Source: Bacteroidia bacterium (lineage in GTDB: Bacteria > Bacteroidota > Bacteroidia > Cytophagales > Cyclobacteriaceae). Taken from it: a DNA stretch of 64,000 nt. The DNA lies in contig JAUILA010000020.1 of the NCBI GenBank assembly GCA_030432655.1, positions 1 to 64,000 of the forward strand, read 5' to 3'. The notes beneath the pieces are model-generated. The model had not been told where the DNA came from. It saw nothing but the letters and a program-made list of their open reading frames with translations, and did not search any database. A program made the translations under genes and the position numbers. Shown in pieces: positions 19,309 through 42,789 of the stretch (the stretch's first letter is position 1; every line of letters starts with the position of its first letter).

Positions 19309-20172
19309 CTAGGAGCCTGGTTTATAGGCAACGGCTTCCTGCCTTGACTTACCCAGTCCTTCAATGCCAAGTTCCATTATATCGCCGGGCTTGAGGTATC
19401 TCGGCGGTTTGAAGCCCATCCCTACGCCAGGAGGCGTACCGGTTGAAATGACATCACCCGGCAACAGTGTCATGAACTGCGAAATGTAGGAAATAACTTT
19501 TGGAACGTTGAAAATGAGTGTTTTGGTGTTCCCGTCCTGCACCCGCTCACCATTGATCTCGAGCCACATATCCAGGTTGTGAACATCATCGATCTCATCC
19601 GGGGTGACAAGATATGGCCCCAGGGGAGAAAATGTATCCGCGCTCTTCCCTTTTACCCACTGTCCTTCCCGCTCAAGCTGGAATTCACGCTCACTTACAT
19701 CGTTCATCAGGCAGTAACCAGCAATGTGACCCCATGCCTCATCTTCACTGACATAGCTGGCTTTTTTACCGATTACGATTGCCAGTTCCACTTCCCAGTC
19801 AGACTTGACACTGTTTTTAGGAATGATCACCTGGTCGTAGGGACCACAAAGAGAGGTAGTCGCTTTGAAGAACAGGATCGGTTCTTTCGGAATCGCCATA
19901 CCTGCTTCCCGGGCGTGATCCGAATAATTCAGTCCGATACAGATGATCTTACTTGGCCTGGCCACCGGTGAACCGATACGCGCATCCTGCGGAACCCGCG
20001 GGGCAGTTCCGGCATTATTTTCCAGCCAGTCGGATAGTTTTTCCGGACCCTTTTCAGTAAAGAATTGCTCATTATAATCTGCGAATGCCTCACTTACATC
20101 AATCTTTTTCCCATCAGGTAGTAGTACACCGGGGCGTTCTGAGCCCGGCGCGCCAAATCGTATTAATTTCAT
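19309..20172 (-). CDS. Fumarylacetoacetase-family 2,4-diketo-3-deoxy-sugar-acid hydrolase
   Basis: This 287-residue FAH-fold enzyme resembles the hydrolases that split 2,4-diketo-3-deoxy-L-fuconate or -rhamnonate into pyruvate and a hydroxyacid. Landmarks are IICIGLNYSDHA, the metal-binding glutamates in SDWEVELAIVIGKK, NDVSEREFQ, the lysine in GQWVKGKSADTF and the C-terminal STGTPPGVGMG. The gene starts one base after the stop of the SDR gene, so the two are translationally coupled. Together they would carry out the last two steps of a non-phosphorylative pathway. Ureidoglycolate lyase-like activity is the main alternative; the SDR, lactonase and dehydratase neighbours argue against it. Confidence 0.85.
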   Translation of the reverse strand: MKLIRFGAPGSERPGVLLPDGKKIDVSEAFADYNEQFFTEKGPEKLSDWLENNAGTAPRVPQDARIGSPVARPSKIICIGLNYSDHAREAGMAIPKEPILFFKATTSLCGPYDQVIIPKNSVKSDWEVELAIVIGKKASYVSEDEAWGHIAGYCLMNDVSEREFQLEREGQWVKGKSADTFSPLGPYLVTPDEIDDVHNLDMWLEINGERVQDGNTKTLIFNVPKVISYISQFMTLLPGDVISTGTPPGVGMGFKPPRYLKPGDIMELGIEGLGKSRQEAVAYKPGS

Positions 20173-20173
20173 A

Positions 20174-20926
20174 TCAGGTATTTAAATTGGTCAGTCCGCC
20201 GTCAATGGTATAATTACTTCCGGTAATAAAAGCAGACTCATCTGAACAAAGATACAGTACAAGAAGCGCAATCTCTTCCGGGTTCCCCATCCGGCCAATC
20301 GGCTGTGTTTTCGAGAGTTTTTCAAACATTTCTTCTTCCTGTCCCGGATAATTCTCCTTCAGAAACCCGTCGACAAACGGAGTATGTACCCGTCCCGGCG
20401 AAATACTGTTTACCCGGATGTTATCCTTGATATAGTCTTTGGCTACGGAATATGTCATGGAAAGGATTGCGCCTTTGCTCGCCGAGTAGGCGAATCGATC
20501 ATTCAGTCCGACCATGGCCGCCACCGATGCCATGTTCACAATAGATCCGCCACCATTTTTTTTCATGTGTTTGACCGCCGCCGCCATGCAGTAAAAAGCC
20601 CCGCGAACATTCACATCGAATACACGATCGAATTCTGCCGGTGATGTATTTTCCACATTTCCGATGTGTGCGATGCCGGCATTGTTGATCAGTATATCAA
20701 GCCCGGAATCACCTGCAACCTTGTCAAAGGTTTGTGCCACCACTTCTTCCCGGGTGATATCACATGAATGAAAGGAAATGCCTTCCGGTCCTTCCGGCGG
20801 AGGCTGAAGGTCCAGGATATGAACGCGTGCGCCCTGTTTTTTGAGCGTTTTTACCACGGCTGACCCAATACCCCGGGACCCGCCGGTGACGATGGCGGTT
20901 TTGCCTGCTAAACTAAAAATTGCCAT
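20174..20926 (-). CDS. SDR-family 2-keto-3-deoxy-sugar-acid dehydrogenase (predicted)
   Basis: This 250-residue classical short-chain dehydrogenase has the nucleotide-binding TGGSRGIGSAV near the N-terminus, the structural NNAG, the catalytic serine in NMASVAAM and the YSASK tyrosine-lysine pair. It ends with the usual TGSNYTIDGGL. Its coupling to a diketo-acid hydrolase gene is the arrangement known for 2-keto-3-deoxy-L-fuconate dehydrogenase, so oxidation at C4 of a 2-keto-3-deoxy aldonate is the likely reaction. It is first in a leftward two-gene operon whose upstream region carries the palindrome at 20967-20982. Family membership is certain; the substrate is inference. Confidence 0.85.
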   Translation of the reverse strand: MAIFSLAGKTAIVTGGSRGIGSAVVKTLKKQGARVHILDLQPPPEGPEGISFHSCDITREEVVAQTFDKVAGDSGLDILINNAGIAHIGNVENTSPAEFDRVFDVNVRGAFYCMAAAVKHMKKNGGGSIVNMASVAAMVGLNDRFAYSASKGAILSMTYSVAKDYIKDNIRVNSISPGRVHTPFVDGFLKENYPGQEEEMFEKLSKTQPIGRMGNPEEIALLVLYLCSDESAFITGSNYTIDGGLTNLNT

Positions 20927-20948
20927 TGGCTGAAAATTATAAAATTGA

Positions 20949-20989
20949 TTGAATAATCCTTTATAAGTTCATATGTTTGAACAAACATA
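20949..20989. promoter_or_regulatory. Divergent promoter with GTTCA-N6-TGAAC operator, site 1
   Basis: GTTCATATGTTTGAAC (20967-20982) is an interrupted palindrome with 5-bp arms. A second overlapping palindrome, TATGTTTG-AA-CAAACATA, covers 20972-20989. On the plus strand TATGTTTG (20972-20979) matches the TAnnTTTG -7 element exactly, with TTG at 20949-20951 exactly 20 bp upstream. On the minus strand the mirror copy also reads TATGTTTG. A repressor bound here would block both arms of region B. Confidence 0.7.
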
Positions 20990-21066
20990 CGTAAATAGCC
21001 GGGCATATTGAAATATTTGCAGGCTTGAAATCAGGGATCAATTCACAACTGCATGTCAAAGAGATC

Positions 21067-22134
21067 ATGAAACTGGGATTAGGATTATACCGCAGCATTC
21101 TCACCCGCGATAATTTTGCGTTTGCCAGGCAGGCAGGCGCTACCCACATTGTGGCCCAGCTGGTGGATTATATTAAAGGAAGCAATCCGTCCCTGACCGG
21201 AAATTACCTGGGCGGCTGGGGCACCACACGGAATCATGACAAGCCCTGGACGTACGATTTACTTGCATCGTTAAAAAAGGAGATTGGTTCGTACGGACTA
21301 CAGCTGGAGGCCATTGAGAATCTGGATCCTTCCCATTGGTATGACATTTTACTGGACGGACCACGCAGGGAGGAGCAAGTGGAGAATCTTAAGCAGCTGA
21401 TCCGGGATATGGGCAAGGCCGGAATTCCCGTGCTTGGGTATTATTTCAGTCTGGCGGGAGTCTGGGGCTGGACCAGCCGGAAAGAAGGACGCGGCGCACC
21501 TGCATCGGTCGTTTTCGATGAATCAGGGGTGGATGTAAACCAACCAATTCCTCAGGGTATGGTTTGGAATATGTGGTACAAGGAGCAGAATGAGAAACAA
21601 TTTATTTCACCTGTTTCGCGGGATGAAATGTGGGAGAGGCTGACATATTTTCTTAACCATTTGCTGCCGGTTGCAGAGGAGAACGGGGTCAGACTTGTGG
21701 CCCATCCTGATGATCCGCCGTTGCCTGAGATGCGGCAAACCGCACGACTGTTTTATTCTCCGAAACAATATGAACGTCTGCTGGAGGTGAATGACAGTCC
21801 GGCCAGCGGTTTTGAATTTTGCCTGGGAACCCTTCAGGAAATGCCGGGAAGCGATGTGTATTCCCTGCTGGATAAATATTCGGCCAGTGACCGGATTGGT
21901 TATATTCATTTCAGGAATGTTATCGGAAAAGCGCCCCGCTACCGGGAAGCCTTCGTGGATGAAGGAGATCTTGATATGGTACGTGTTATGCAAATCCTCA
22001 AAAAAAATAACTACGACGGGGTGCTGATCCCGGATCATACACCGGAAATGAGTACACCGGCCGGGTGGCATTCCGGGATGGCATTCGCACTCGGGTATAT
22101 GAGGGGCGTTATACAAACGCTTGAGAGGTCATGA
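21067..22134 (+). CDS. Mannonate dehydratase (UxuA)-family sugar-acid dehydratase
   Basis: This 355-residue TIM-barrel protein belongs to the UxuA family, which dehydrates D-mannonate to 2-keto-3-deoxygluconate using a divalent metal. Family motifs are HPDDPPLPEM, the metal-site YIHFRNV and a late histidine in IPDHTPEM. It diverges from canonical UxuA in much of its N-terminal half (GLGLYRSILTRDNFAFARQ). ATG 21067 was chosen over 21025 because the first strand KLGLGLY follows directly. It overlaps the next gene by 4 bp. By context it converts the aldonate made by the dehydrogenase and lactonase into a 2-keto-3-deoxy acid. The aldonate need not be mannonate. Confidence 0.82.
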   Translation: MKLGLGLYRSILTRDNFAFARQAGATHIVAQLVDYIKGSNPSLTGNYLGGWGTTRNHDKPWTYDLLASLKKEIGSYGLQLEAIENLDPSHWYDILLDGPRREEQVENLKQLIRDMGKAGIPVLGYYFSLAGVWGWTSRKEGRGAPASVVFDESGVDVNQPIPQGMVWNMWYKEQNEKQFISPVSRDEMWERLTYFLNHLLPVAEENGVRLVAHPDDPPLPEMRQTARLFYSPKQYERLLEVNDSPASGFEFCLGTLQEMPGSDVYSLLDKYSASDRIGYIHFRNVIGKAPRYREAFVDEGDLDMVRVMQILKKNNYDGVLIPDHTPEMSTPAGWHSGMAFALGYMRGVIQTLERS

Positions 22135-23147
22135 GTTGCCGGCTGACATATGAACAGATCGACGGCATGCCTGCCGTTACCCTCGAGAATGACCTGTTAA
22201 AAATCGGACTGCTTCCGGGTCGGGGAAGTGATATTTATCAATTCCATTACAAGCCTGGAGAACAGGATTTTCTGCTTTCCCTGAAGAAAGGGATCCGAAA
22301 CCCTGCAACGCATTTTACGCAGATCCGGGATACAAAGCGGCAATTTGAGGATTATTATTACGGAGGATGGCAGGTATGTTTTCCAAACAGTCCGGCCTTT
22401 AACTACCGGGGGGCCGAACTGGGACAACACGGCGAAGTTTCGCTAATACCCTGGGACTTTACGGTGACGAAGGATACTCCCGGTGAGATTGTTATCACGT
22501 GTAATTCGAATGTGCTTCGGTTGCCGCTTGGGATGGAAAGAATATTCAGTCTGAAAAAGGATGAAGCTTCGCTGACCATTAAGGAAAAAATAGTGAATAC
22601 CGGTGGCACCGCCCTCGACGTCATGTGGGGCCAGCACATTGCATTTGGCCTGCCGTTCCTCAAATCCGGCGCAAAGGTGGAATGTAATGCGGCTACACTG
22701 GAAGCGGAACCTTCAATTCCCGGACCAGTTCTGCTGGAAAGAGGATGCTCTTTTGACTGGCCGGTAGCGCGTACTGTTCAGGGGAAGGAGATCAGGGCGG
22801 ATAATTTTCCGCCGGAAGGCGAAGCCTGCTACAGTGAGCTGGCCTACCTTGAAAATTTTCCTGACAGCGCGGAATACCGCATAATGAATAATGAAATTGG
22901 ATTTCAACTTACCTGGGACGGGAAGTTATTCAAAACACTCTGGATGTGGCAGGAGCGAAATGCCATCAAGGATTTTCCCTGGTGGGGGGATTGTTTTACG
23001 CTGGCGCTTGAACCATGGACTTCCCGGTGGACAGGTGACCCGGAAAAAGCCATTGCTAATGGCGAATGGCTCAACATTGATGCAGGTCAGGAAATTGAAT
23101 CCAGTTTCAGGGCTGCCGTATTTGAAACGAACGTTGGAAACAAATGA
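22131..23147 (+). CDS. DUF4432 aldose-1-epimerase-like protein
   Basis: This 338-residue cytoplasmic protein resembles the DUF4432 branch of the galactose-mutarotase superfamily. Visible landmarks are IGLLPGRGSDIYQFHYKPG near the N-terminus, YGGWQVCFPNSPAFNYRG, the histidine in WGQHIAFGLPFL and LALEPWTSRW near the end. It would supply the correct anomer of a sugar to the dehydrogenase. ATGA overlaps join it to the genes on both sides. No signal peptide is present. Assignment rests on superfamily pattern and context. Confidence 0.78.
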   Translation: MSCRLTYEQIDGMPAVTLENDLLKIGLLPGRGSDIYQFHYKPGEQDFLLSLKKGIRNPATHFTQIRDTKRQFEDYYYGGWQVCFPNSPAFNYRGAELGQHGEVSLIPWDFTVTKDTPGEIVITCNSNVLRLPLGMERIFSLKKDEASLTIKEKIVNTGGTALDVMWGQHIAFGLPFLKSGAKVECNAATLEAEPSIPGPVLLERGCSFDWPVARTVQGKEIRADNFPPEGEACYSELAYLENFPDSAEYRIMNNEIGFQLTWDGKLFKTLWMWQERNAIKDFPWWGDCFTLALEPWTSRWTGDPEKAIANGEWLNIDAGQEIESSFRAAVFETNVGNK

Positions 23148-23989
23148 ATATAACTGAGAAATGCAGTATTTACGCCGAGGGACTGGATCACCCGGAATGT
23201 ATTGCCTGGCATCCTGACGGATCTGTATGGGCCGGAGGAGAAGCAGGTCAGATCTACAGGATAGATCCGGAAAGCCGAACGCCCGAGGTGGTGGCCTCTA
23301 CCGGTGGATTTGTTTTAGGTATTGCATTTAGTCCGGACTGTCAGTGGCTGATGATCTGTGATCTTGCAGGAAGTTGTCTCTGGCGCCTGGATTGTAACAC
23401 ATACGAGCTTAGTAAATTTTCAAAAGGTGCTGGTGATCATGAATTCAGCATCCCGAATTATGCCTGTTTCGATCAGCAAGGCAATGTGTATGTTTCAGAA
23501 AGCGGGGCTTTCCGGGAGGTGATCGGGAAGGTACTCAAATACGATTCACAGGGTAATGGATCAGTATGGTGCCCGGGCCCTCTGAATTTTGCCAATGGAA
23601 TGGCCCTTGATACCTCCGAAGAATACTTATATGTGGTTTGTTCTTTTCTCCCCGGTATAGAGCGAATCCGGATTAATGAAGATGGAACGGCCGGTGAACG
23701 TGAGGTATTTGCCACATTGCCCGAAACAGTTCCCGATGGGGTGGCCTTTGATCATGAAGGGAACCTGTGGGTATCCTGTTACGCACCGAATAAATTATAC
23801 CGTATTGATCCTGACCGCCGGGCCCGCCTGGTAGTCGACGACTGGGAAGGCCATACGCTGGCCAATCCGACCAATATTGCCTTTGGAGGGAAAAGTTTTG
23901 ATCAATTATTTACTGCCAACCTGGGTCGCTGGCATGTAACAAAAATAGATCTGGGAATAAGAGGACTTAAATTACCTTGTCATTTATGA
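23144..23989 (+). CDS. SMP-30/gluconolactonase-family sugar lactonase
   Basis: This 281-residue cytoplasmic six-bladed propeller belongs to the SMP-30/regucalcin family. Landmarks are GLDHPECIAWHPDGSVWAGG with the metal-binding glutamate, IPNYACFDQQGNVYVSE, FANGMALDTSEEYLYVV and VPDGVAFDHEGNLWVSCY. It probably opens the lactone made by the sugar dehydrogenase encoded next to it. Unlike the 15009 gene product it has no signal or cupin domain. It overlaps both neighbours by 4 bp, indicating coupled translation. Confidence 0.87.
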   Translation: MNITEKCSIYAEGLDHPECIAWHPDGSVWAGGEAGQIYRIDPESRTPEVVASTGGFVLGIAFSPDCQWLMICDLAGSCLWRLDCNTYELSKFSKGAGDHEFSIPNYACFDQQGNVYVSESGAFREVIGKVLKYDSQGNGSVWCPGPLNFANGMALDTSEEYLYVVCSFLPGIERIRINEDGTAGEREVFATLPETVPDGVAFDHEGNLWVSCYAPNKLYRIDPDRRARLVVDDWEGHTLANPTNIAFGGKSFDQLFTANLGRWHVTKIDLGIRGLKLPCHL

Positions 23990-24753
23990 AAGAGTTTGAA
24001 GGAAAACATGTCGTAGTGACCGGGGCCGCAAAGGGCATTGGTCGTGGAGCCACGGAAGTATTCCTCCGGGAGGGGGCTTTCGTTACAGGTCTTGATCTTG
24101 ATCAGGACGCCATGGATGCCATGGAGCATGAAAATCTGGTCATGTATACATGTGATGTATCGGACAGCCAATCAGTCAATCAGGTTATAAAGCGTGCATC
24201 CGATAAATTCGGAAAAGCAGAAGTTTTGGTTAATAACGCGGGCATTAATCCGTACGGAACCGTTACTGAAACATCAGAAGAATTATGGGATAAGGTGTTA
24301 AACACCAATCTCAAAAGTGCTTTTCTCATGAGCAAGGCGGTTTTACCGGCCATGGTGGAAGCTCAATCCGGAGTAATTGTCAACGTTTCCAGCGTACAGG
24401 CATTTATTACCCAGGACCAGGTGGCGGCTTATACTACCTCCAAAACAGCCATGCTCGGACTTACCCGAAGTATTGCCGTTGATTATGCGCCGCATATCCG
24501 TTGTGTAGCTGTTTGCCCCGGGACTATCGATACACCGATGCTGCGAAGTGCTTTTCAGGAGTCACCTGATCCGCAGGCAGTTCTGGAGGAATGTATCGAC
24601 ATGCACCTTGTAAAGAAAATTGGTACGCCGGCCGAGGTGGGAGAATTTATTGCCTACCTCGCCAGTGATAAGGCCTCCTTTATGACCGGACAGGCATTCC
24701 GAATCGATGGCGGACTTGGGATTGCCATTGGCGGAAGTAAACAGAAATCATAA
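23986..24753 (+). CDS. SDR-family sugar 1-dehydrogenase (predicted)
   Basis: This 255-residue classical SDR has the cofactor motif TGAAKGIGRGA, NNAGINPYG, the catalytic serine in NVSSVQAF, YTTSK and the C-terminal MTGQAFRIDGGLG. I chose the ATG at 23986, which overlaps the previous stop as ATGA, over an upstream TTG at 23977. The lactonase and mutarotase beside it suggest that it oxidises the sugar at C1 to a lactone. It and the SDR at 20174 are different enough to act at different steps, but which SDR does which step is inference. Confidence 0.83.
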   Translation: MKEFEGKHVVVTGAAKGIGRGATEVFLREGAFVTGLDLDQDAMDAMEHENLVMYTCDVSDSQSVNQVIKRASDKFGKAEVLVNNAGINPYGTVTETSEELWDKVLNTNLKSAFLMSKAVLPAMVEAQSGVIVNVSSVQAFITQDQVAAYTTSKTAMLGLTRSIAVDYAPHIRCVAVCPGTIDTPMLRSAFQESPDPQAVLEECIDMHLVKKIGTPAEVGEFIAYLASDKASFMTGQAFRIDGGLGIAIGGSKQKS

Positions 24754-24769
24754 ATCAGTTAAAGTATCT

Positions 24770-25501
24770 ATGAAGTTAGAGATCGACCATAACAGTTCTA
24801 TTCCCCTTCATGTCCAGGTGGAGGACTTATTGCGAAAAATGATCGCTTTGCCTGAATATCAGGAGGGTAAATTACTTCCGAATGAGCTCAAATTGTCCCG
24901 CCAGCTAGGTATTTCCAGGAATACATTGCGGCAGGCAACCAATAAGCTTGTGTATGAGGGTCAGTTGCTGCGTAAGAAAGGTGTTGGTACAGTTGTTTCG
25001 AAGCCGGTTGACAGTAAGGCGAAAAACTGGATGAGCTTCAGCCAGGAAATGAAGTCAAAAGGAGTAAAGGTGATGAATTATTCCATGAAGCTGGATTGGG
25101 AGATTCCGCCTTCTGAGGTGATCAATTTTTTTGGAATTCCTGAAAAATCCAGGGTGCTTAAAATGGAACGGGTACGGGGGGATGTAAAGAATCCTTTCGT
25201 TTATTTCATTTCCTATTTTAATCCGGCGATTGGTCTCACCGGGGAGGAGGATTATACCATGCCGCTGTACGATATGCTGGAAAAAGAACATTCAGTAATT
25301 GCCAAGCTCAGCATTGAGGAAATAACGGCCATGGCAGCTGATGACATGATTGCGGAAAAACTTAAAGTCAAAACGTCATATCCTATCCTGAAACGTAAGC
25401 GTTTTGTCTACGACCCGGGACGTCGGCCTGTTGAATATAATATTGGCTATTACAAATCTGACAGTATTGTTTACACTGTTGAAAGTGAGAGAGAAATATG
25501 A
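24770..25501 (+). CDS. GntR/HutC-family transcriptional regulator with UTRA ligand domain
   Basis: This 243-residue regulator has an N-terminal winged helix (SIPLHVQVEDLLRKMI, then LSRQLGISRNTLRQATNKL) and a C-terminal UTRA effector domain of about 160 residues containing FISYFNPAIG and RRPVEYNIGYYKSDS. The ATG at 24770 places the helix-turn-helix at the usual distance; an upstream in-frame ATG at 24707 lies inside the SDR gene. It is encoded within the pathway operon it probably controls. The obvious target is GTTCA-N6-TGAAC, found before the pathway and before region C. The inducer is likely a pathway sugar or sugar acid. Confidence 0.88.
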   Translation: MKLEIDHNSSIPLHVQVEDLLRKMIALPEYQEGKLLPNELKLSRQLGISRNTLRQATNKLVYEGQLLRKKGVGTVVSKPVDSKAKNWMSFSQEMKSKGVKVMNYSMKLDWEIPPSEVINFFGIPEKSRVLKMERVRGDVKNPFVYFISYFNPAIGLTGEEDYTMPLYDMLEKEHSVIAKLSIEEITAMAADDMIAEKLKVKTSYPILKRKRFVYDPGRRPVEYNIGYYKSDSIVYTVESEREI

Positions 25502-26607
25502 GAATATCGGGGATGATGATGGCGCTGGTTCTGGCCGGGCTGGCAGCGTCGTGCGGAGCACAGGAAGATAAAGAAAATCAGGGAGAGCAGTCCGGTAAGG
25601 TGAAAACGGTACCTGATTCCTTGTTCACCACAGCATTTCTTCCCGATACAGTCGGATTTGCAGGAGCGGACGGGGTTTATTCCCAGGAAATGCCGGACGG
25701 TCGGACGGTCTGGATTTTTGGAGATACGTTCATCGGCAACCTGACTGATGGGAATAAGCGATTCAAGACAGATCCGCTGTACATACGCAATTCCTTTGTC
25801 ATTTTTGAGGATGACCGGAGAATAACACTTCAACAAGGTAATCCTGAGGAGTTCAGGTCAATGATGATACCACCGGAAGTGGAAGACGGAACTTCAGGCA
25901 AGTCTGAGCTGGAGTTGTGGTACTGGCCAGGAGATGCTTTTATTGAAAATGGTGACCTGAATGTATTTGTAAGCAAATTTTCCCAATCAGGTGAAGGAAT
26001 GTGGGATTTCAATTTTGAAGGTACAGAGCTGGTGTCCTTCTCCTATCCCGGTTTTGAATTTCAACAAGTCGATACGTTTAACGACCTGGACAGTATTCAT
26101 TTCGGCCACGCCATTTGTGAGACGGATTCGTTTACGTATATATACGGACTGAAAGACGGAAAAGCATACGCCGCACGTGCAGAAGCTGGTCATGTGCGGG
26201 GAACCTGGGAGTTTTTTAACGGCAGTGGCTGGGCAACAGATGCAGCTCAGTCGGAGCCTATGCTTGATTTCTCCGGCTCGGAGCAGTTCAGTGTTTTCCC
26301 CTACCAGGGGAAGTTCATAATGATCATGCAGGAAGGCAGTCTGAGCAACCGGATATTCGCTTTCACGGCAGATTCGCCGGCCGGTCCATGGTCGGAAGGA
26401 AAGCTGATCTATGAAATTCCGATTCCTGAAGACAACAAAAATATCTTTACCTATAATGCCCTGGCTCATCCGCAGTTCATGGAGAATGGTATGCTGCTTG
26501 TTTCGTACAATACAAACAGCTTCGAACTGCAGGATCATTTCGACGATGCCCTGATTTACAGACCACGATTTATCAGGGTTCCCATGGCACTGATTCTGAA
26601 AGATTAA
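25498..26607 (+). CDS. DUF4185-like beta-propeller lipoprotein, copy 1
   Basis: This 369-residue lipoprotein (lipobox AASCG) has repeated propeller-type motifs: RTVWIFGDTFIGN, NSFVIFEDD, LWYWPGDAFI, YTYIYGLKDG, EQFSVFPYQGKF, YNALAHPQF and LLVSYNTNSF. The same pattern recurs in the genes at 41720 and 42790. I place it near the DUF4185/DUF5005 group of predicted five-bladed propellers; no activity can be assigned. It overlaps the GntR gene by 4 bp and closes the region B operon, which ties it to uptake or processing of the sugar whose breakdown is encoded upstream. Confidence 0.75.
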   Translation: MRISGMMMALVLAGLAASCGAQEDKENQGEQSGKVKTVPDSLFTTAFLPDTVGFAGADGVYSQEMPDGRTVWIFGDTFIGNLTDGNKRFKTDPLYIRNSFVIFEDDRRITLQQGNPEEFRSMMIPPEVEDGTSGKSELELWYWPGDAFIENGDLNVFVSKFSQSGEGMWDFNFEGTELVSFSYPGFEFQQVDTFNDLDSIHFGHAICETDSFTYIYGLKDGKAYAARAEAGHVRGTWEFFNGSGWATDAAQSEPMLDFSGSEQFSVFPYQGKFIMIMQEGSLSNRIFAFTADSPAGPWSEGKLIYEIPIPEDNKNIFTYNALAHPQFMENGMLLVSYNTNSFELQDHFDDALIYRPRFIRVPMALILKD

Positions 26608-32206: not shown

Positions 32207-33958
32207 ATGGAATACAATAAATACCCGGCTATCCGGATACCGGAAACCTATAGTTGTCTGACTGGCTGGAAATCTATTTGGGAAGAAGTGGCCCGGGCCG
32301 CTAAGAACAGCAATAACGATCTGATTGTAATGGAATGTTATCAGGGCGTTCATCTGGATCAGGTGATAGATTCTGTTCGTGCCTCATTTAATGATGTCCT
32401 TGTCATTGACTCACGGGAGGCTTTCAGACCGGAGCAGGAGATAACAGACCTGACCTATCCGGATATTACGGATGACAGGATTTTCGGCAGGCTCACTTCA
32501 CTTGAAATGAAAGATTTGCTGGATGAGGAATTAACCGGTGCGTTACTCAACAGGATCAGGCAGCATTCCGGAATGGTTTGTTTAGCCGGTCCCGGTGCCC
32601 TCGAAATCGCATCGTCGATTGACGCCCTGAGAATCTTTGCTGATATGGCCAGGTGGGAGATCCAGCAGCGCATGCGCAGGAAGGAAGTGGATAGTTTGGG
32701 ATTGCGTAATTCGGGTGACCCGTTTGAAACCTTATATAAGCGTGGATATTTTCTTGACTGGCGGGTATGTGATAAGGTCAAAAGAAAATTCTTTGACCAA
32801 ATTGACTACTGGCTGGACACCAATGACCCGGAGTCACCAAAACTGATTAGCCATGACACGTTTGAAACAGCTCTTGAACTTACTGTTTCACAACCTTTCA
32901 GTGTGGTACCGTTTTTTGATCCGGGGCCATGGGGCGGGCAATGGATGCGGGATAAGTTTGATCTCGATAAATCTGCTCCGAATTATGCCTGGTGTTTTAA
33001 CTGTGTTCCGGAAGAAAACAGTTTGCTTTTTGATTTCGGAGGGACTGTTTTTGAAACTCCTTCAATCAATACGGTATTCTTCAAACCCGATGAATTATTG
33101 GGTAAATCTGTAAGGCGGCAGTTCGGAGAAGAATTCCCCATTCGCTTTGATTTTCTTGATACTATCCAGGGAGGTAACCTGAGCTTACAGGTACATCCTC
33201 TTGATGAATATATTCAGAATGAATTCAACATGTCCTATACACAGGACGAGAGCTATTACATGCTGGACGCGGACAAGGATGCCTGTGTTTACCTGGGACT
33301 CCGGGAGGAAGCAGACGGCCAGGCAATGATCGCCGATCTGGAGCGTGCCCGGCTCAATGGGCAGGACTTTCAGGCGGAGAAATATTCTGAAAGCTGGCCC
33401 GCAAAAAAACATGACCATTTTCTGATTCCGGCCGGCACGGTTCATTGTTCAGGGAAAGGATGTATGGTATTGGAGATCAGTGCCACCCCGTACATTTTCA
33501 CCTTTAAATTATGGGACTGGGGCAGGCTGGGCATGGACGGAAAACCCCGGCCAATAAATATTGAACGCGGAAATGAGGTGATCCAATGGGATCGTCGCTC
33601 GGGATGGGTAAAGGACAACCTGATCAACCGGGTGGAAGTACTGGATGAAGGTGAAGACTGGCGTGAAGAGCGAACAGGACTTCATCAGCTTGAATTTATT
33701 GAAACGCGCAGGCACTGGCATACCGGAAAAGTTCAACACGACACCCGGGGTACTGTAAATGTCCTCATGCTGGTAGAGGGTGAGCAGGCAATTGTGGAAA
33801 GCCCCGCCGCGGAATTTCATCCGTTCGTGGTAAATTATGCCGAGGCATTCATCGTACCGGCCCGCACTGGAAAATATTCAATTCGTCCTTTCGGCAGAAG
33901 CCAGGGAAAAGAAATCGCTACGCTAAAAGCATATGTCAGAGACAGCAACAATCACTAA
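32207..33958 (+). CDS. Class I mannose-6-phosphate isomerase with N-terminal kinase-like extension
   Basis: This 583-residue cytoplasmic enzyme carries a type I phosphomannose isomerase cupin domain in its second half. It includes PGPWGGQWM, the zinc-binding NLSLQVHPLDEYIQ with the early QVH motif, and LIPAGTVHCSGKGCMVLEIS. It would convert mannose-6-phosphate to fructose-6-phosphate. The first 240 residues are an extension resembling a nucleotide-kinase domain, but the expected P-loop is replaced by ECYQGVHLDQV with no GK[ST], so the domain looks inactive. Typical PMIs are 300-400 residues. It follows SusD by 14 bp and overlaps the transporter gene by 26 bp. Confidence 0.88.
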   Translation: MEYNKYPAIRIPETYSCLTGWKSIWEEVARAAKNSNNDLIVMECYQGVHLDQVIDSVRASFNDVLVIDSREAFRPEQEITDLTYPDITDDRIFGRLTSLEMKDLLDEELTGALLNRIRQHSGMVCLAGPGALEIASSIDALRIFADMARWEIQQRMRRKEVDSLGLRNSGDPFETLYKRGYFLDWRVCDKVKRKFFDQIDYWLDTNDPESPKLISHDTFETALELTVSQPFSVVPFFDPGPWGGQWMRDKFDLDKSAPNYAWCFNCVPEENSLLFDFGGTVFETPSINTVFFKPDELLGKSVRRQFGEEFPIRFDFLDTIQGGNLSLQVHPLDEYIQNEFNMSYTQDESYYMLDADKDACVYLGLREEADGQAMIADLERARLNGQDFQAEKYSESWPAKKHDHFLIPAGTVHCSGKGCMVLEISATPYIFTFKLWDWGRLGMDGKPRPINIERGNEVIQWDRRSGWVKDNLINRVEVLDEGEDWREERTGLHQLEFIETRRHWHTGKVQHDTRGTVNVLMLVEGEQAIVESPAAEFHPFVVNYAEAFIVPARTGKYSIRPFGRSQGKEIATLKAYVRDSNNH

Positions 33959-35312
33959 ATCCGAAGGTTCCGGACGTTACATCTATTTTGTAAGTATCGT
34001 GGCCGCCCTTGGCGGGCTTCTGTTTGGCTATGACACGGCGGTCATTGCCGGGGCCATCGGATTCATTGAAACTAAGTTTCAATTATCCCCGGCCATGACC
34101 GGATGGGCAGCTTCCAGTGCTATCTGGGGATGTGTGGCTGGTGCGCTTAGTGCAGGCTATATCAGTGACCGGTGGGGACGAAAGAAGGTGCTGATCGTGA
34201 CAGCCATCCTGTTTGCCATTTCGGCCATCGGCTCGGCCATTCCTGAAAACCTCACCCAGTTTGTCCTGGCCCGCTTCATTGGTGGCGTAGGTGTCGGAGC
34301 AGCATCCATGTTGTCTCCGATGTATATTTCAGAAGTAGCACCTGCCAGTAAAAGAGGCATGCTTGTCACATTGTATCAACTGGCCATTGTACTTGGTATT
34401 AATCTGATCTACTTCGTTAACCTGGAAATCGCCGGGATGGGGGACGATTCCTGGAATACAGAATACGGATGGCGCTATATGCTGGGTTCAGAAACAATCC
34501 CTGCAGTGCTGTTTATGATAACCCTGTTTTTTGTTCCGGAGAGTCCGCGGTGGCTTGCCGGAAAAGGCAGGGATAAAGAGGCCATGAATGTGCTTGAGAA
34601 GGTAAACGGGGAAGAGAAGGCCCGCCTGGTAATGCAGGAGGTTAAAGCAACCCTGCGTGAGGAAAAAGGGACTATCCGGGAATTGTTTGCCCCTGGTTTG
34701 CGCACAGCAATGATCGTCGGGATGTTCCTGGCGATGTTTTCGCAGATTACCGGGATAAACGCAATTATCTATTATGCCCCGGAAATATTTAAAAGCGTGG
34801 GTTTTGGTACCGATTCCGCACTTCTTCAAACGGTAATTATCGGGATCACAAACACCGTATTTACATTTGTGGCAATCCGGTTCATTGACCGTGCCGGACG
34901 AAGGAAATTATTACTCTGGGGAGTTTCCGGGATGATCCTGTGCCTTACGGGTGTGGGTATCGTGTTCTGGTTTGACCTGAGCTCAGGTCCGTTGCTCCTG
35001 TTTTTCATTCTCGGATTTATTGCCAGCTTTGCGTCATCCCTCGGTCCGATACCCTGGGTGATTATTTCTGAAATATTTCCTACAAAAACCAGGGGAATCG
35101 CCATGTCATTTGCCACGTTCACGCTGTGGATTGGTGTGGTGTTGGTAACACAGCTGACCCCGGTACTGCTTGACAGCCTGGGTGGCGCCATTACATTCTG
35201 GATATTCGCGGGCAACGCCATTCTCCTGCTGATCTTTACTTACCGTATGATCCCGGAAACAAAAGGCAAAACCCTTGAAGAAATTGAACATCAATGGAAA
35301 GCGGCTAACTAA
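33933..35312 (+). CDS. MFS sugar-proton symporter
   Basis: This 459-residue inner-membrane protein has twelve predicted helices and the sugar-porter signatures GYDTAVIAGAIGFI, SDRWGRKKVL, VPESPRWLAGKGRDKEA and the C-terminal PETKGKTLEEIE. It belongs with XylE, GalP and AraE. It would import a monosaccharide, most likely mannose or glucose, released in the periplasm by the glycosidases of this operon. It overlaps the isomerase gene by 26 bp and lies 2 bp before the kinase gene. Exact sugar is not readable. Confidence 0.93.
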   Translation: MSETATITKSEGSGRYIYFVSIVAALGGLLFGYDTAVIAGAIGFIETKFQLSPAMTGWAASSAIWGCVAGALSAGYISDRWGRKKVLIVTAILFAISAIGSAIPENLTQFVLARFIGGVGVGAASMLSPMYISEVAPASKRGMLVTLYQLAIVLGINLIYFVNLEIAGMGDDSWNTEYGWRYMLGSETIPAVLFMITLFFVPESPRWLAGKGRDKEAMNVLEKVNGEEKARLVMQEVKATLREEKGTIRELFAPGLRTAMIVGMFLAMFSQITGINAIIYYAPEIFKSVGFGTDSALLQTVIIGITNTVFTFVAIRFIDRAGRRKLLLWGVSGMILCLTGVGIVFWFDLSSGPLLLFFILGFIASFASSLGPIPWVIISEIFPTKTRGIAMSFATFTLWIGVVLVTQLTPVLLDSLGGAITFWIFAGNAILLLIFTYRMIPETKGKTLEEIEHQWKAAN

Positions 35313-35314
35313 TA

Positions 35315-36406
35315 TTGCAGAAGGATAAAACCATACTGACCCTTGATGCAGGCGGAACAAATTTCGTTTTCAGCGCCATCAGGAATTTTCAGGAAGTTTC
35401 AGAGACCATTACCCTGCCTGCTAATGCCCACCAACTGGATGAATGCCTCGGAAGCCTGGTGAAGGGATTCAAAATGGCCAGGAAACAAGCTGGCGATGCG
35501 GCTGCCATCAGTTTTGCCTTTCCGGGTCCGGCCGATTACAAACAGGGAATCATTGGTGATCTTCCAAATTTTCCGGCATTTACAGATCCGGTACCCCTGG
35601 CCGATATACTTGAGGAGGAATTCAGGATTCCTGTATACATTAATAATGACGCAAATCTGTTTGCTGCCGGTGAGGCTGAAAAAGGGTTTCTTCCTGCTCT
35701 GAACAAAAGGCTTGCAGAATATGGCAGTAACCGGACGTTCCGAAACCTCATCGGGATCACTCTCGGAACCGGTTTCGGCTGTGGTTTTGTGATCAATGAA
35801 AATATGCTTACCGGCGATAATTCGTCCGGCGCGGAAATTCATAATACGCTCAACAAATTTCACCCTTCCTGGAACGCGGAGGAAGATGTCAGTACCAGAG
35901 GAATTATCAGATTTTATGAACATTTTGCCGGGAATTCAATCAGCCGGCTTACCCCTAAGCTGGTATACGAAATTGCCCATGGACGCTGTGATGGAGATCA
36001 GAAGGCAGCATTACAGGCTTTTGAACGGTTTGGAGAATCACTCGGGGCATCGCTCGGCAATGTAATGACGCTCATCGATGGTGTGGTAGTCCTTGGCGGC
36101 GGTCTGACAGGCGCCTGGGACCTGTTTTCCGGTGCCATGTTCAGTGAGCTGGACAGGAAATTTGAAGATGCTTCCGGTAAGGTTCATCCGCGTTTGTCCT
36201 TTAAAGTATTCGATCTGCAGAATGAAAATACCTTCAGGCAGTTCTCTTCAGGTGATCCGGTTAATGTACGCCTGCCCGGATCTGCAGTATCCAGGACCTA
36301 CGATGCCATGCCGAGAACAGGCATCGGATTATCTTCCCTGGGGGTCTCCCGTGCCACGATGTACGGCGCTTACTCTTTTGCTTTAAGAATGCTAAATGAA
36401 AAATGA
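35315..36406 (+). CDS. ROK-family sugar kinase (predicted mannokinase/glucokinase), TTG start
   Basis: This 363-residue protein has the ROK phosphate-binding motif LTLDAGGTNFVFS, the sugar-binding VYINNDANLFAAGEAE, ITLGTGFGCGFVIN and the ATP site VVVLGGGLTGAWDL. Only part of the usual zinc motif is visible around GAEIHNTLNKFH. The motif DAGGTN begins 10 residues from the start and no ATG precedes it after the upstream stop, so the TTG at 35315 must be the start. With the isomerase two genes earlier it would phosphorylate mannose to mannose-6-phosphate. Glucose or fructose are alternatives. Confidence 0.87.
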   Translation: MQKDKTILTLDAGGTNFVFSAIRNFQEVSETITLPANAHQLDECLGSLVKGFKMARKQAGDAAAISFAFPGPADYKQGIIGDLPNFPAFTDPVPLADILEEEFRIPVYINNDANLFAAGEAEKGFLPALNKRLAEYGSNRTFRNLIGITLGTGFGCGFVINENMLTGDNSSGAEIHNTLNKFHPSWNAEEDVSTRGIIRFYEHFAGNSISRLTPKLVYEIAHGRCDGDQKAALQAFERFGESLGASLGNVMTLIDGVVVLGGGLTGAWDLFSGAMFSELDRKFEDASGKVHPRLSFKVFDLQNENTFRQFSSGDPVNVRLPGSAVSRTYDAMPRTGIGLSSLGVSRATMYGAYSFALRMLNEK

Positions 36407-38714: not shown

Positions 38715-41700
38715 ATGAAGATGAAAGCAGGCAGGTTAATTCTATGTATGACGGCCATGCTGATGGCCGGACAGCTATCAGTTCTCGGTCAGGGAAACGC
38801 GCCGGTGGATTATGTGGATCCGCTGATCGGCTCACATAATTCAAGGTGGATCAATTTTCCGGGCCCGACCAGGCCGTTTGGTATGGTTAAACTGAGCCCT
38901 GATAATCAGGAGCTTGGCTGGAAGGCCGGATATGAATATGAAATTGAAAACCTGGCCGGCTTCAGTCATATCCATTCATGGACGATGGCGGGACTTTTGT
39001 CCATGCCAACCAATGGACCACTACTGATCAAGCCAGGCACGGAAAAGGACCCGGAGAGGGGATACCGTTCACATTTTTCTCATGACAATGAGGAGGCACG
39101 GCCCGGCTACTATTCTGTATTCCTCGATGACTATGGAATTAAGGCTGAACTTTCCACGACCAAAAGAGCCGGATTTCACAGGTATACATTCCCGGCAAGT
39201 GATTCGTCCCGCATTCTCCTGGACCTGCTGACTCCGTCAGAATATGGATATGAAATCGGGTATACGCATTTTCAAAAAGTTTCAGACCACGAGCTCGAAG
39301 GGATAAGTTACCAGCAATCCCTGCGCAAAGCCAATTACAACGAATACATTCTGCACTTTGTCGTTCGCTTTAATAAGCCATTTGACTCGATGAACGGGTG
39401 GGTCAAGGAAGAGATCATACGGAATCAGGAATTCATTTCTTCAGAATTCGGACATAAGGATACCGGGGCATTTCTTACGTTCCGGACGGAGGAAAATGAA
39501 CAAATACTCATGCAAGTCGGGATTTCACTCGTGAGTATCGAACAGGCGAGGCTGAATCTTGAGACTGAAATGGATCCGTTTGACTGGAATTTTGACGAGG
39601 TCGTACAGGACAGTGAAAAGGAATGGAATGACCTGCTTTCCGTTATCGAAGTGGAAACGTCTGATGAGAAGCTTAAGAAGAAATTTTATACAAACCTTTA
39701 CCGTGCGTATTCCGGACGTACTACATGGAGTGACGTGAATGGGAAATATGTCGATATGTACGAGAAGGTTCAGCAAATGCCCGATGGTAAGCCGATCTAC
39801 GGAAGTGACGGATACTGGATCACGATGTGGAACCTCAATCCGCTCTGGTCGCTGGCAACCCCGGAGATTGCCAATAACTGGGCAATCAGTATGCTGGAAA
39901 TGAGTGACCGGGGAGGGTGGCTCCCCAAGGGTCCGACAGGCATTGAATATTCCGGTATCATGGTGGCCTCTCACCAGATATCACTGATCACCAACGCATA
40001 TCACAAAGGCATCCGGAATTTTGATGCCGAAAAGGCCTATAATGCGGCGGTAAAGCTGCAGACCGAACAGGGCCGTGCCCATGATGCCGGGGGCTGGGTT
40101 GGAAACAGGAACCTGACCGATTACATTAACCTGGGGTACGTGCCTGATGATGCCGGGCCGGTTTCCAATACCCTCGAATATGCCTATGATGACTGGACGG
40201 TAGGTCAGTTTGCCAAAGCCCTGGGAAAGGAGTCGGATTATAAAACTTACACCAAACGAGCGTTTAACTATAAAAACGTATTTGATCCCGAAGTTGGGTA
40301 TATGCGCAGGAAGAATCGCGATGGTTCCTGGGCCCCGTTTTCGCCTTTCGGGGATGTGGCATGGCTCGGACCGGGATTTGTGGAAGGGAATGCCTGGCAA
40401 TATACCTATTTCGTTCCCCATGATGTAAGCGGGCTCATTCAACTCGTGGGCAGGGATGAATTTAATAACCGCCTGGAGGAAGGGTTCAACACGTCGGCCG
40501 AACATAATTTCAATTCTGAACACCTGGGGTCCAATTCGCTGGATGGCATGGGCGTCCTGCCGATTAACCATGGGAACCAGCCAAATATGCAGGCAGCCTA
40601 CCTTTTTAATCACTCCGGTAAACCGTGGCTGACCCAGTACTGGGCCAACGAAATAATGGAAAAATACTACGGAGACGATCCGGAGACCGGCTGGCTGGGC
40701 GATGAGGACCAGGGCCAAATGGGGGCCTGGTTTGCCATGAGCGCCCTTGGACTGTTTGAAATGGATGGCGGCGCCTCTGTTGATCCGGTCTATGAAATTG
40801 GAACTCCAAAATTTGACAAGGCGGTGATCCATCTGGATACTGCCTATTATCCCGGTGGTACTTTCACCATTGAAGCAAAAAAGGTCTCCGCAAGGAATAT
40901 CTACGTTCAGTCTGCTTCGCTAAATGGTGAAGAGCTGGAGGGTCCATGGTTCTATCATAAGGACCTGGTGAAAGGCGGCAAGCTGACCCTCGTGATGGGG
41001 AGCAAGCCGAATATGTCCTGGGGAACTGATGAAGAAGACGCTCCCCCTTCTTTAAGTACCATTCTGAGCCAGGCAGAGATCGATACCATTATGGCATATG
41101 ATAAATTTGCCGAGGAGCTGGCAGAATGGAACCGGGCAGTCAAGGCCTATTATTATCACCGCAAGGAACACTTTGAGACCCTCCCGGATACGGAAGGAGA
41201 GATCATCTTTCTCGGGAACAGCATAACGGACGGCGCTGAATGGTTTGAATTGTTTGATGGTAATCCGAATGTTAAAAACCGGGGGATTGGCGGAGATGAT
41301 ACGGACGGAGTCCTGGAAAGACTGGATGAAGTGTTGTCTTCTGAGCCTGCCAAGGTATTCCTGCTTATCGGGACCAATGACATATCCTACGGGAAGACGG
41401 TGGATCATGTGGTGGAAAACCATAAACTGATCATTCAGCGTATTAAGGAAGCATCACCTGAAACGGAGATTTATATACAATCAGTTCTTCCGGTACAGGA
41501 GTCAATTCACCCCACCCGGCCGGTTTCTTCCATCCACGATATCAACAGCCAATTGAAGGAGATTAGTGAATCAGAAGGGATTACCTATATTAACCTTTTT
41601 GACCTTTTTGCAGATGAGAGCGGGATGCTTGATATGAAGTACAGCATTGACGGCCTGCATTTGAATGCCGAAGGTTATTTGAAATGGGTGGAAGCTGTGC

Positions 41701-41720
41701 AAAAGTATGTTAATGACTAA
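38715..41720 (+). CDS. GH92 exo-alpha-mannosidase fused to a C-terminal SGNH esterase
   Basis: This 1001-residue secreted protein (signal peptide ending near VLGQ) starts with a GH92 calcium-dependent alpha-mannosidase. Landmarks are VDYVDPLIGSHN, FPGPTRPFGMVKLSPDNQ, GFSHIHSWTMAG, YGSDGYWITMWNLNP, and the catalytic-region DEDQGQMGAWFAMSALGLF. After about residue 790 comes a linker, then an SGNH hydrolase with GNSITDG (nucleophile Ser836), the oxyanion asparagine in IGTNDIS and the DGLHLN catalytic aspartate-histidine pair. The second domain probably removes acetyl or similar groups that block the mannosidase. The gene abuts the previous stop and its own stop overlaps the next start by one base. 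Confidence 0.92.
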   Translation: MKMKAGRLILCMTAMLMAGQLSVLGQGNAPVDYVDPLIGSHNSRWINFPGPTRPFGMVKLSPDNQELGWKAGYEYEIENLAGFSHIHSWTMAGLLSMPTNGPLLIKPGTEKDPERGYRSHFSHDNEEARPGYYSVFLDDYGIKAELSTTKRAGFHRYTFPASDSSRILLDLLTPSEYGYEIGYTHFQKVSDHELEGISYQQSLRKANYNEYILHFVVRFNKPFDSMNGWVKEEIIRNQEFISSEFGHKDTGAFLTFRTEENEQILMQVGISLVSIEQARLNLETEMDPFDWNFDEVVQDSEKEWNDLLSVIEVETSDEKLKKKFYTNLYRAYSGRTTWSDVNGKYVDMYEKVQQMPDGKPIYGSDGYWITMWNLNPLWSLATPEIANNWAISMLEMSDRGGWLPKGPTGIEYSGIMVASHQISLITNAYHKGIRNFDAEKAYNAAVKLQTEQGRAHDAGGWVGNRNLTDYINLGYVPDDAGPVSNTLEYAYDDWTVGQFAKALGKESDYKTYTKRAFNYKNVFDPEVGYMRRKNRDGSWAPFSPFGDVAWLGPGFVEGNAWQYTYFVPHDVSGLIQLVGRDEFNNRLEEGFNTSAEHNFNSEHLGSNSLDGMGVLPINHGNQPNMQAAYLFNHSGKPWLTQYWANEIMEKYYGDDPETGWLGDEDQGQMGAWFAMSALGLFEMDGGASVDPVYEIGTPKFDKAVIHLDTAYYPGGTFTIEAKKVSARNIYVQSASLNGEELEGPWFYHKDLVKGGKLTLVMGSKPNMSWGTDEEDAPPSLSTILSQAEIDTIMAYDKFAEELAEWNRAVKAYYYHRKEHFETLPDTEGEIIFLGNSITDGAEWFELFDGNPNVKNRGIGGDDTDGVLERLDEVLSSEPAKVFLLIGTNDISYGKTVDHVVENHKLIIQRIKEASPETEIYIQSVLPVQESIHPTRPVSSIHDINSQLKEISESEGITYINLFDLFADESGMLDMKYSIDGLHLNAEGYLKWVEAVQKYVND

Positions 41721-42787: not shown

Positions 42788-42789
42788 AG

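Follow-up and report, generated by a model that had tools for sequence, protein, structure and literature searches.

Introduction

Non-phosphorylative sugar pathways that end with C4 oxidation and hydrolysis of a 2,4-diketo-3-deoxy acid (Route III) have been described before (PMC6336799, PMC11199699), and here we compare with them six adjacent genes at positions 19309-24753 of a 64,000-nucleotide stretch of contig JAUILA010000020.1 (assembly GCA_030432655.1) from Bacteroidia bacterium, a member of the Cyclobacteriaceae; this whole stretch is called the window below. The dehydratase predicted in this gene cluster is a UxuA-like protein, which we term UxuAL. The pathway type is known and its steps are standard; what departs from the standard is the gene set and the family to which the dehydratase belongs.

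One described relative is the non-phosphorylating L-fucose pathway of the Xanthomonas campestris type, which has the same reaction order and the same kinds of C4 dehydrogenase and FAH-type hydrolase, but uses an enolase-superfamily dehydratase, an amidohydrolase and a small rhaM-type protein (as in our comparison locus, L179) where the window has the UxuA-like dehydratase, an SMP-30 lactonase and a DUF4432 mutarotase. The Route III pentose pathway of Herbaspirillum huttiense also combines C4 oxidation with hydrolysis and converts 2-keto-3-deoxypentonate to pyruvate and glycolate; its D-arabinonate dehydratase lies outside the enolase superfamily, like UxuAL, but is of the UxaA/GarD type, a different family from UxuA (PMC6336799). 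A preliminary description of the locus had set a UxuA-type dehydratase apart from the enolase-type enzyme of the L-fucose route, and this distinction stands; the enolase superfamily is, however, not the sole kind known in such routes, as the H. huttiense enzyme makes clear. The Sphingomonas non-phosphorylating L-rhamnose pathway contributes the hydrolase (LRA6, PDB 8gsr) that is the closest solved structure to the window FAH protein by sequence. That route differs in its sugar, since L-rhamnose gives a C4 configuration unlike that of the main substrates of L-2-keto-3-deoxyfuconate 4-dehydrogenase (L-KDFDH) enzymes. The UxuA mannonate dehydratases (ManD; 3ban, 1tz9 and 4eac) share their fold and apparent metal ligands with UxuAL, which is 24-30% identical to them when aligned by structure, falls under curated cut-offs and has other gene partners. 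Lastly, a paper on cell-free mannose oxidation with AldT, ManD and a 2-keto-3-deoxygluconate (KDG) aldolase describes, as predicted here, an aldose dehydrogenase followed by a mannonate dehydratase acting on unphosphorylated intermediates, but the cascade ends in the aldolase, without C4 oxidation or an FAH hydrolase, and is a designed one from which its authors infer an archaeal route (PMC6901390). A limited search of mostly open-access literature found no description of a UxuA-type dehydratase in a diketo-hydrolase pathway, a weak negative, and a review from 2026 on the mammalian L-fucose pathway does not use the word UxuA (PMC13406643).

Results

Six adjacent genes encode a predicted Route III pathway

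All six genes named in the preliminary description are open reading frames, with Pfam matches that agree with the families given there (Table 1; the SDR matches have E-values of 6.5e-60 and 1.3e-59). They form two divergent units, with the FAH gene and one SDR gene on the minus strand (19309-20926); the plus strand (21067-24753) carries the genes of UxuAL, DUF4432, SMP-30 and the second SDR, after which comes a GntR/UTRA regulator. By family and motif all six Route III steps are encoded together. The DUF4432 protein would mutarotate the sugar, the SDR at 23977 would oxidise it at C1 to the lactone with NAD(P)+, and the SMP-30 protein would open the lactone. UxuAL, in place of the enolase-superfamily enzyme of the classical L-fucose route, would dehydrate the aldonate with the help of a metal; the resulting 2-keto-3-deoxy acid would be oxidised at C4 by the SDR at 20174, and the FAH protein would hydrolyse the 2,4-diketo-3-deoxy acid so formed to pyruvate and a hydroxy acid. 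We consider a pathway of this class, with UxuAL as its dehydratase, fairly likely, a judgement that does not extend to the sugar; each reaction, and the sugar, we infer from families, folds, conserved ligands and motifs, synteny and co-occurrence. The roles proposed earlier for the six proteins, including the C1/C4 division of the SDRs, the diketo-hydrolase ending and the choice of the UxuA-family protein as dehydratase candidate, are supported by the families, by the residue patterns of the two SDRs, by the relation of the FAH protein to 8gsr and by the fold and invariant ligands of UxuAL.

UxuAL keeps the fold of mannonate dehydratase in a separate subfamily

UxuAL belongs to the Pfam family UxuA (PF03786; 175.6 bits, cut-off 23.7), and the start codon conserved in it is the ATG at 21067 rather than the TTG at 21025. 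With 39 sequences as input, the AlphaFold model had a mean predicted local distance difference test (pLDDT) score of 94.6. When it was re-aligned with the 1000 best chains, the three mannonate dehydratase structures came out on top (Z 35.8 to 3ban, 34.7 to 1tz9 and 34.2 to 4eac, with 317-319 residues aligned at 2.4-2.6 Å), and the next family reached 24.4. H213, C252, H281 and D323 are invariant in the 39 sequences and match the His-Cys-His-Asp set that we take to be the metal ligands of ManD. They align with like residues of 3ban and of a UxuA protein from the same genome, the latter comparison being read from one row (L001), as L002 and some second-tier rows were misread in frame or strand and are uninformative. 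By sequence and model, UxuAL keeps the ManD fold and apparent metal ligands and yet makes a separate subfamily. Two other UxuA genes of the window genome match PF03786 far better (8.7e-132 and 1.4e-112, vs 2.9e-51 for UxuAL), so that UxuAL is neither the only nor the ordinary copy; we rejected it as an ordinary mannonate dehydratase on this ground and because it misses the curated cut-offs.

The two SDRs differ at the positions that define C4 dehydrogenases

In a study that solved L-KDFDH structures, such enzymes are sorted into types 1-4 by the equivalents of Arg148, Thr183, Arg192 and Arg214, with R-R-F-T as type 4; the type 4 enzyme of Sphingobacterium mizutaii has a kcat/Km for L-2-keto-3-deoxyfuconate (L-KDF) of 2730, vs 7900 min-1 mM-1 for type 1 (PMC11199699). 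According to the same study, L-KDF is the best substrate of L-KDFDH, D-2-keto-3-deoxypentonate (D-KDP) is accepted and D-KDG is used 105-fold less well than L-KDF, and type 1 enzymes act mainly on 2-keto-3-deoxy acids with a 4(S)-hydroxyl, with moderate activity on the 4(R) acid L-KDP (PMC11199699).

Aligned with 8xwk/8y11, the SDR at 20174 has the type 4 pattern R-R-F-T (residues in Table 1). The same pattern is found in the UxuAL-linked copy of L080, and R-R-Y-T in those of L060, L082, L104 and L108; C4-type SDR copies near FAH genes elsewhere (51-56% identity) carry R-R-F/Y-T/S in 10 of 10 cases. The SDR at 23977 has V-T-A-M at these positions and, as its aligned orthologues, is without the C4-dehydrogenase pattern. 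Its best NCBIfam model is the aldose dehydrogenase NF005007 (276.5 bits, under the cut-off of 341), and its best PDB matches are the aldose dehydrogenases 3vtz and then 2dtd, both presumably Thermoplasma enzymes. From these patterns we predict that the SDR at 20174 oxidises C4 and the SDR at 23977 oxidises C1. If the 4(S) preference of type 1 L-KDFDH is applied by analogy to the type 4 SDR at 20174, this enzyme would favour 4(S)-hydroxyl acids too. SDRs 39% and 34% identical to it, at L142 13299-14693 and L122 12-764, have the type 1 pattern R-T-R-R and share their loci with UxuAL relatives.

The DUF4432 protein has a mutarotase fold

The model of the DUF4432 protein (pLDDT 86.7) places it in the mutarotase superfamily: Foldseek ranks 1-3, 5 and 6 are aldose 1-epimerases or galactose mutarotases or the like (best E 3.2e-16), and the template modelling scores of the top matches, normalised by query length, are moderate (0.54-0.70). 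H100, H169 and E294 are invariant in 26 sequences, with a numbering near that of the GalM H170/E304 mutants, a likeness of position numbers rather than of superposed residues.

The gene set and its hydrolase recur in other genomes

Among 395 genomes searched across the phylum, five other than the window's encode a close orthologue of UxuAL (52-63% identity). Scanning one genome per species gave 468 stretches that encode a UxuAL relative, and the best 80 of these (51-72% identity) were kept; they come from Bacteroidetes, Ignavibacteria, Marinimicrobia, Gemmatimonadetes, Verrucomicrobia, Phycisphaerae, Anaerolineae, Alphaproteobacteria, Acidobacteria and others. We compared 84 loci, namely 78 named ones, five more and the window, after removal of two repeats, counting partners within 6 kb of UxuAL; several contigs end early. 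DUF4432 is present in 33 of the 84, together with SMP-30 (either of two clusters) in 26, a C1-type SDR in 25, a C4-type SDR in 7, FAH in 6 and DUF5005/DUF4185 proteins in 20; for the 17 such loci with full flanks the corresponding counts are 14, 15, 6, 6 and 12. UxuA-like, DUF4432, SMP-30 and C1-type SDR genes thus recur together, and the search for the whole set that had been proposed earlier succeeded, with all six genes within 6 kb in five further genomes (L059, L060, L082, L104 and L108). A chance neighbourhood of the six genes was rejected, as the set recurs. In L059 the six genes all point in one direction, with a relative of the GntR regulator (55% identity) further on, and the divergent arrangement is seen again in L060, L104 and L108. 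The cluster is missing around the UxuA-like genes of fifteen second-tier regions (L064-L078, about 30% identity), which were not considered further.

The best PDB match of the FAH protein is 8gsr, an L-2,4-diketo-3-deoxyrhamnonate hydrolase (E 1.9e-87). We chose 18 UxuAL genomes, consisting of that of the window, five from the phylum sample and twelve behind named loci, and all 18 encode a close copy, at 56-67% identity in the 17 besides the window's, within the cluster in 6 and elsewhere in 12. In the phylum sample an FAH protein of at least 50% identity occurs in 69 of the 395 genomes (74 at E<=1e-60, less 5 under 50%), among them all 6 UxuAL genomes, from five families (hypergeometric 2.4e-5, without correction for kinship). 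In 10 of 13 stretches around non-clustered FAH copies, two of them from one genome, a C4-type SDR is nearby, and in four (L179, L180, L184 and L185) an enolase-superfamily gene is close; the latter belong to G617, G845, G658 and G846, four of the 12 genomes whose FAH gene lies away from the cluster. Pfam, run on single representatives, identified enolase-superfamily, Amidohydro_2 and rhaM-type proteins in L179 and an alpha-L-fucosidase, GH31 and sulfatase in L182. Because enolase-domain matches occur in 18 of 18 UxuAL genomes and in 14 of 14 controls, only an enolase position beside FAH was used as evidence. Genomes whose UxuAL cluster has no genes for the last two steps encode the close FAH copy at another site, in most cases next to a C4-type SDR; there the core around UxuAL probably passes its product to the lower half of a route of the L-fucose type. 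A UxaA/GarD-type protein, recognised by Pfam, lies at L186 10894-12549 beside a C4-type SDR and FAH, with the same cluster in L189 and L190; the arrangement resembles that of the D-arabinonate dehydratase of PMC6336799.

The cluster lies among glycan-utilisation genes

Polysaccharide-utilisation genes surround the six genes: SusC/SusD-type proteins, esterases, GH92, GH9, a sugar porter, an ROK protein and three DUF5005/DUF4185 proteins. Between the FAH/SDR unit and the UxuAL unit lies the perfect palindrome TATGTTTGAACAAACATA, which matches the window once with 0 mismatches, where 0.32 matches at <=3 mismatches are expected by chance, and which is possibly the operator of the GntR regulator. 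An inverted repeat with TATGTT and AACATA, resembling this palindrome, stands just upstream of UxuAL in L059 (9310-9341). Elsewhere in the window, a protein without a Pfam match (17000-18628) has a partial match (6.6e-13, far under the cut-off) to the BT3328-type hyaluronan lyase family.

Table 1. Features of the window at and around the UxuAL cluster
Feature	Position	Strand	Evidence
FAH-family protein, predicted 2,4-diketo-3-deoxy-acid hydrolase (last step)	19309..20172	-	PF01557 (FAA_hydrolase) 1.8e-72
SDR, predicted 2-keto-3-deoxy-acid 4-dehydrogenase	20174..20926	-	type 4 L-KDFDH pattern R144-R179-F188-T207
Perfect 18-bp palindrome, candidate regulator site	20972..20989	.	sequence, divergent promoter region
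UxuA-like protein (UxuAL), predicted aldonate dehydratase	21067..22134	+	PF03786 1.6e-51
DUF4432 protein, predicted sugar mutarotase	22131..23147	+	PF14486 4.4e-15
SMP-30/SGL protein, predicted aldonolactonase	23144..23989	+	PF08450 3.2e-26
SDR, predicted aldose 1-dehydrogenase, probable start 23986	23977..24753	+	NF005007, 3vtz/2dtd; V-T-A-M pattern
GntR/UTRA regulator	24707..25501	+	PF00392 + PF07702
DUF5005/DUF4185 protein, distant relative of GH183 endo-D-arabinofuranases	25498..26607	+	DUF4185 match, profile comparison
Protein with second half like mannose-6-phosphate isomerase; accessory module	32207..33958	+	1qwr, TIGR00218
Sugar porter (MFS)	33933..35312	+	PF00083 4.7e-132
ROK-family protein, predicted sugar kinase	35315..36406	+	PF00480 4.3e-25
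GH92 protein with C-terminal GDSL domain	38715..41720	+	PF07971 2e-148, PF13472 6.5e-27
Two more DUF5005/DUF4185 proteins	41720..42787 and 42784..43998	+	Pfam

DUF5005/DUF4185 proteins are the commonest glycan-side partner counted in the DUF4432-bearing loci, ahead of an SASA-type esterase (11 of 33), the porter (7) and GH92 (5). The three of the window score 39.5 (25498), 46.3 (41720) and 48.6 bits (42784) with DUF4185, whose cut-off is 39.5. Their profile matches 4hbs, which we take to be BACOVA_04882, at 4.8e-46, and the GH183 endo-D-arabinanase 8hhv at 1.1e-10 over about 100 residues, the N-terminal part staying unaligned. Two Asp residues are present in all 41 aligned rows (37 different proteins, the window protein appearing twice and three repeats coming from one genome), spaced by 18 in 18 rows and by 24-27 in the other 23. 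The GH183 report gives Asp33/Asp51 as the catalytic Asp pair of EndoMA1 and notes that the GH183 catalytic domain resembles BACOVA_04882 (PMC10509167). By these sequence comparisons the window proteins are likely glycoside hydrolases distantly related to GH183.

A second module concerns mannose. Residues 228-468 of the protein at 32207 match 1qwr (E 1.1e-13), and TIGR00218 matches at 7.8e-05 with 22 bits, vs a cut-off of 116.2; an N-terminal part precedes this isomerase-like domain. The ROK protein, whose best NCBIfam match is the ROK glucokinase family, under its cut-off, is encoded two genes downstream, with the porter between, and in L060 (15278-17962) ROK and mannose-6-phosphate isomerase-like parts are fused in one protein; a 67% identical copy of the porter lies beside the L060 cluster. 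From these sequences mannose seems to have its own phosphorylating route here, which would leave the oxidative route for another sugar. In the window GH92, presumably an alpha-mannosidase family, is followed by the GDSL esterase domain within one protein.

D-arabinose is the leading candidate for the sugar

The type of the 4-dehydrogenase suggests a sugar acid with a 4(S)-hydroxyl, and as type 1 L-KDFDH acts mainly on such acids, L-rhamnose and L-arabinose are disfavoured. For L-rhamnose this is not strict, given the moderate use of L-KDP, and it holds despite the 8gsr match and the GH78 genes near two loci. D-arabinose shares the C2-C4 configuration of L-fucose; since L-KDFDH also accepts D-KDP, borrowed L-fucose enzymes could finish the breakdown of D-arabinose. 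The same likeness of configuration has been stated for relatives acting on D-arabinonate and L-fuconate (PMC6336799). Our leading guess, put forward tentatively and with the chances somewhat against it, is therefore D-arabinose, released by the GH183-like enzymes and converted to pyruvate and glycolate. We think it rather unlikely that the sugar has the manno configuration without being plain mannose, and about equally so that it lies outside those named here; L-fucose or L-galactose is a little less likely still, and D-mannose itself very improbable. The preliminary description had left the sugar open, with a range of possible products; the choice now appears narrower, given a C4 dehydrogenase that disfavours L-rhamnose, glycan-degrading surroundings and a mannose module, and the substrate is still a prediction.

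Three observations speak against D-arabinose. No DUF5005/DUF4185 protein lies within 6 kb in 13 of the 33 DUF4432-bearing loci, some of which are on short contigs; GH172, part of characterised D-arabinan systems, was found in only 3 of the 18 UxuAL genomes, and on other contigs in the window's genome; and GH78 rhamnosidase-family genes flank 2 of the 33 loci.

Alternative explanations

The alternative that survives best, which we nevertheless think unlikely, has a manno-configured sugar (D-mannose, D-rhamnose, D-lyxose or an O-methyl mannose) that, once the SDR and the lactonase have acted on it, undergoes UxuA-type dehydration to D-KDG or an analogue, C4 oxidation and cleavage to pyruvate and glycerate, lactate or glycolate. 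UxuA acts on D-mannonate, as the name of the family says, 5 of 33 loci have GH92 inside the 6-kb limit (in the window it lies beyond it), and D-KDG is accepted by L-KDFDH, though so much less well than L-KDF. The closest PDB entries to the C1 SDR are 3vtz and 2dtd, and AldT oxidises mannose, according to the cell-free study (PMC6901390). The ROK and mannose-6-phosphate isomerase-like proteins, fused in L060, suggest on the contrary that plain mannose is phosphorylated. Furthermore, NNAGI is followed by E in 3vtz, by N in the window C1 SDR and by Q or N in its aligned orthologues, except L098, which has L; we assume that this residue matters for mannose in AldT-type dehydrogenases.

Less probable again is that the cluster offers another way of degrading L-fucose (or L-galactose), with UxuAL as a non-homologous L-fuconate dehydratase. 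The C4 dehydrogenase and the hydrolase are of the L-fucose/L-rhamnose-pathway kind, with L-KDF as the best L-KDFDH substrate, and substitutes are to be expected, as the L-fucose locus reported for A. marincola HL-49 is without the known L-fuconate dehydratase (PMC5507952). Against this, the enolase-superfamily gene close to FAH in 4 of 12 genomes (checked by Pfam in one) would make a second upper pathway redundant. A Pfam survey of neighbours covered 83 of 87 selected proteins, one per cluster and with the core clusters left out; no fucosidase is among the 25 listed of its 93 families, which are mostly single matches, with sulfatase, aldehyde dehydrogenase and aldo/keto reductase at two each and PhyH at three.

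It is improbable that UxuAL, as a member of the xylose-isomerase-like TIM-barrel superfamily, isomerises or epimerises its substrate instead, in a cluster serving another oxidation. UxuAL does match PF01261 (3.8e-16), shares its fold with epimerases and isomerases at Z 21-24 and misses the mannonate dehydratase cut-offs, but the ManD structures score higher than the listed epimerases by about 10 Z units, Pfam finds no other dehydratase family in the cluster, and the predicted 4-dehydrogenase and hydrolase require a 2-keto-3-deoxy acid. Just as improbable are two unrelated divergent units, with the FAH and SDR genes a remnant of a lost L-fucose locus beside a UxuAL operon with another ending, a view that accords with the existence of UxuAL relatives with other partners and with the few DUF4432-bearing loci (6 of 33) in which FAH and the C4-type SDR adjoin UxuAL, but not with the hydrolase found somewhere in 18 of 18 UxuAL genomes, the co-directional genes of L059 or the divergent order repeated in L060, L104 and L108.

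The Route III reading, which we prefer, has points against it as well. UxuAL scores under both NCBIfam mannonate dehydratase cut-offs (NF003027 137.5 vs 191 bits; TIGR00695 98.4 vs 199.55), so its reaction could differ, and the FAH protein scores 381.5 bits vs a cut-off of 500 with its best NCBIfam model, the 2,4-didehydro-3-deoxy-L-rhamnonate hydrolase NF053535. The C4-type SDR of L059 has R-R-Y-F, which is no listed type. Many members of the window's own family and class have FAH, and kinship therefore inflates the co-occurrence. Only the six DUF4432-bearing loci mentioned above have both last genes, a seventh having the C4-type SDR alone. The 51 loci without DUF4432 have other partners, such as an RraA-type aldolase (10) or a PF10282 lactonase (8), so that UxuAL is not tied to one pathway ending.

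In L119, L122, L130, L134 and L145, where DUF4432 is absent, an RraA-type aldolase accompanies the UxuAL relative; L130 also has a CoA-transferase III and an enoyl-CoA hydratase, and L119 a ketopantoate-hydroxymethyltransferase-like protein, MaoC and an amidohydrolase. These five loci apparently serve a different pathway.

Discussion

On a wider and more tentative view, which we regard as possible rather than probable, UxuAL is the founding group of a large and widespread set of UxuA-superfamily dehydratases other than mannonate dehydratase. In Bacteroidota and their relatives it would be a Route III dehydratase for D-arabinonate, or for a stereochemically similar acid, fed by GH183-like enzymes acting on an arabinose/mannose-containing glycan, and the last two enzymes would be borrowed from the L-fucose pathway if they are not in the cluster; other phyla would have other endings.

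If this is true, the Pfam name mannonate dehydratase, which UxuAL relatives of many phyla carry, would be misleading for the UxuAL branch. Non-phosphorylative pathways would then draw their aldonate dehydratases from one more superfamily, and a substrate open to testing could be assigned to a set of glycan-utilisation loci from the environment.

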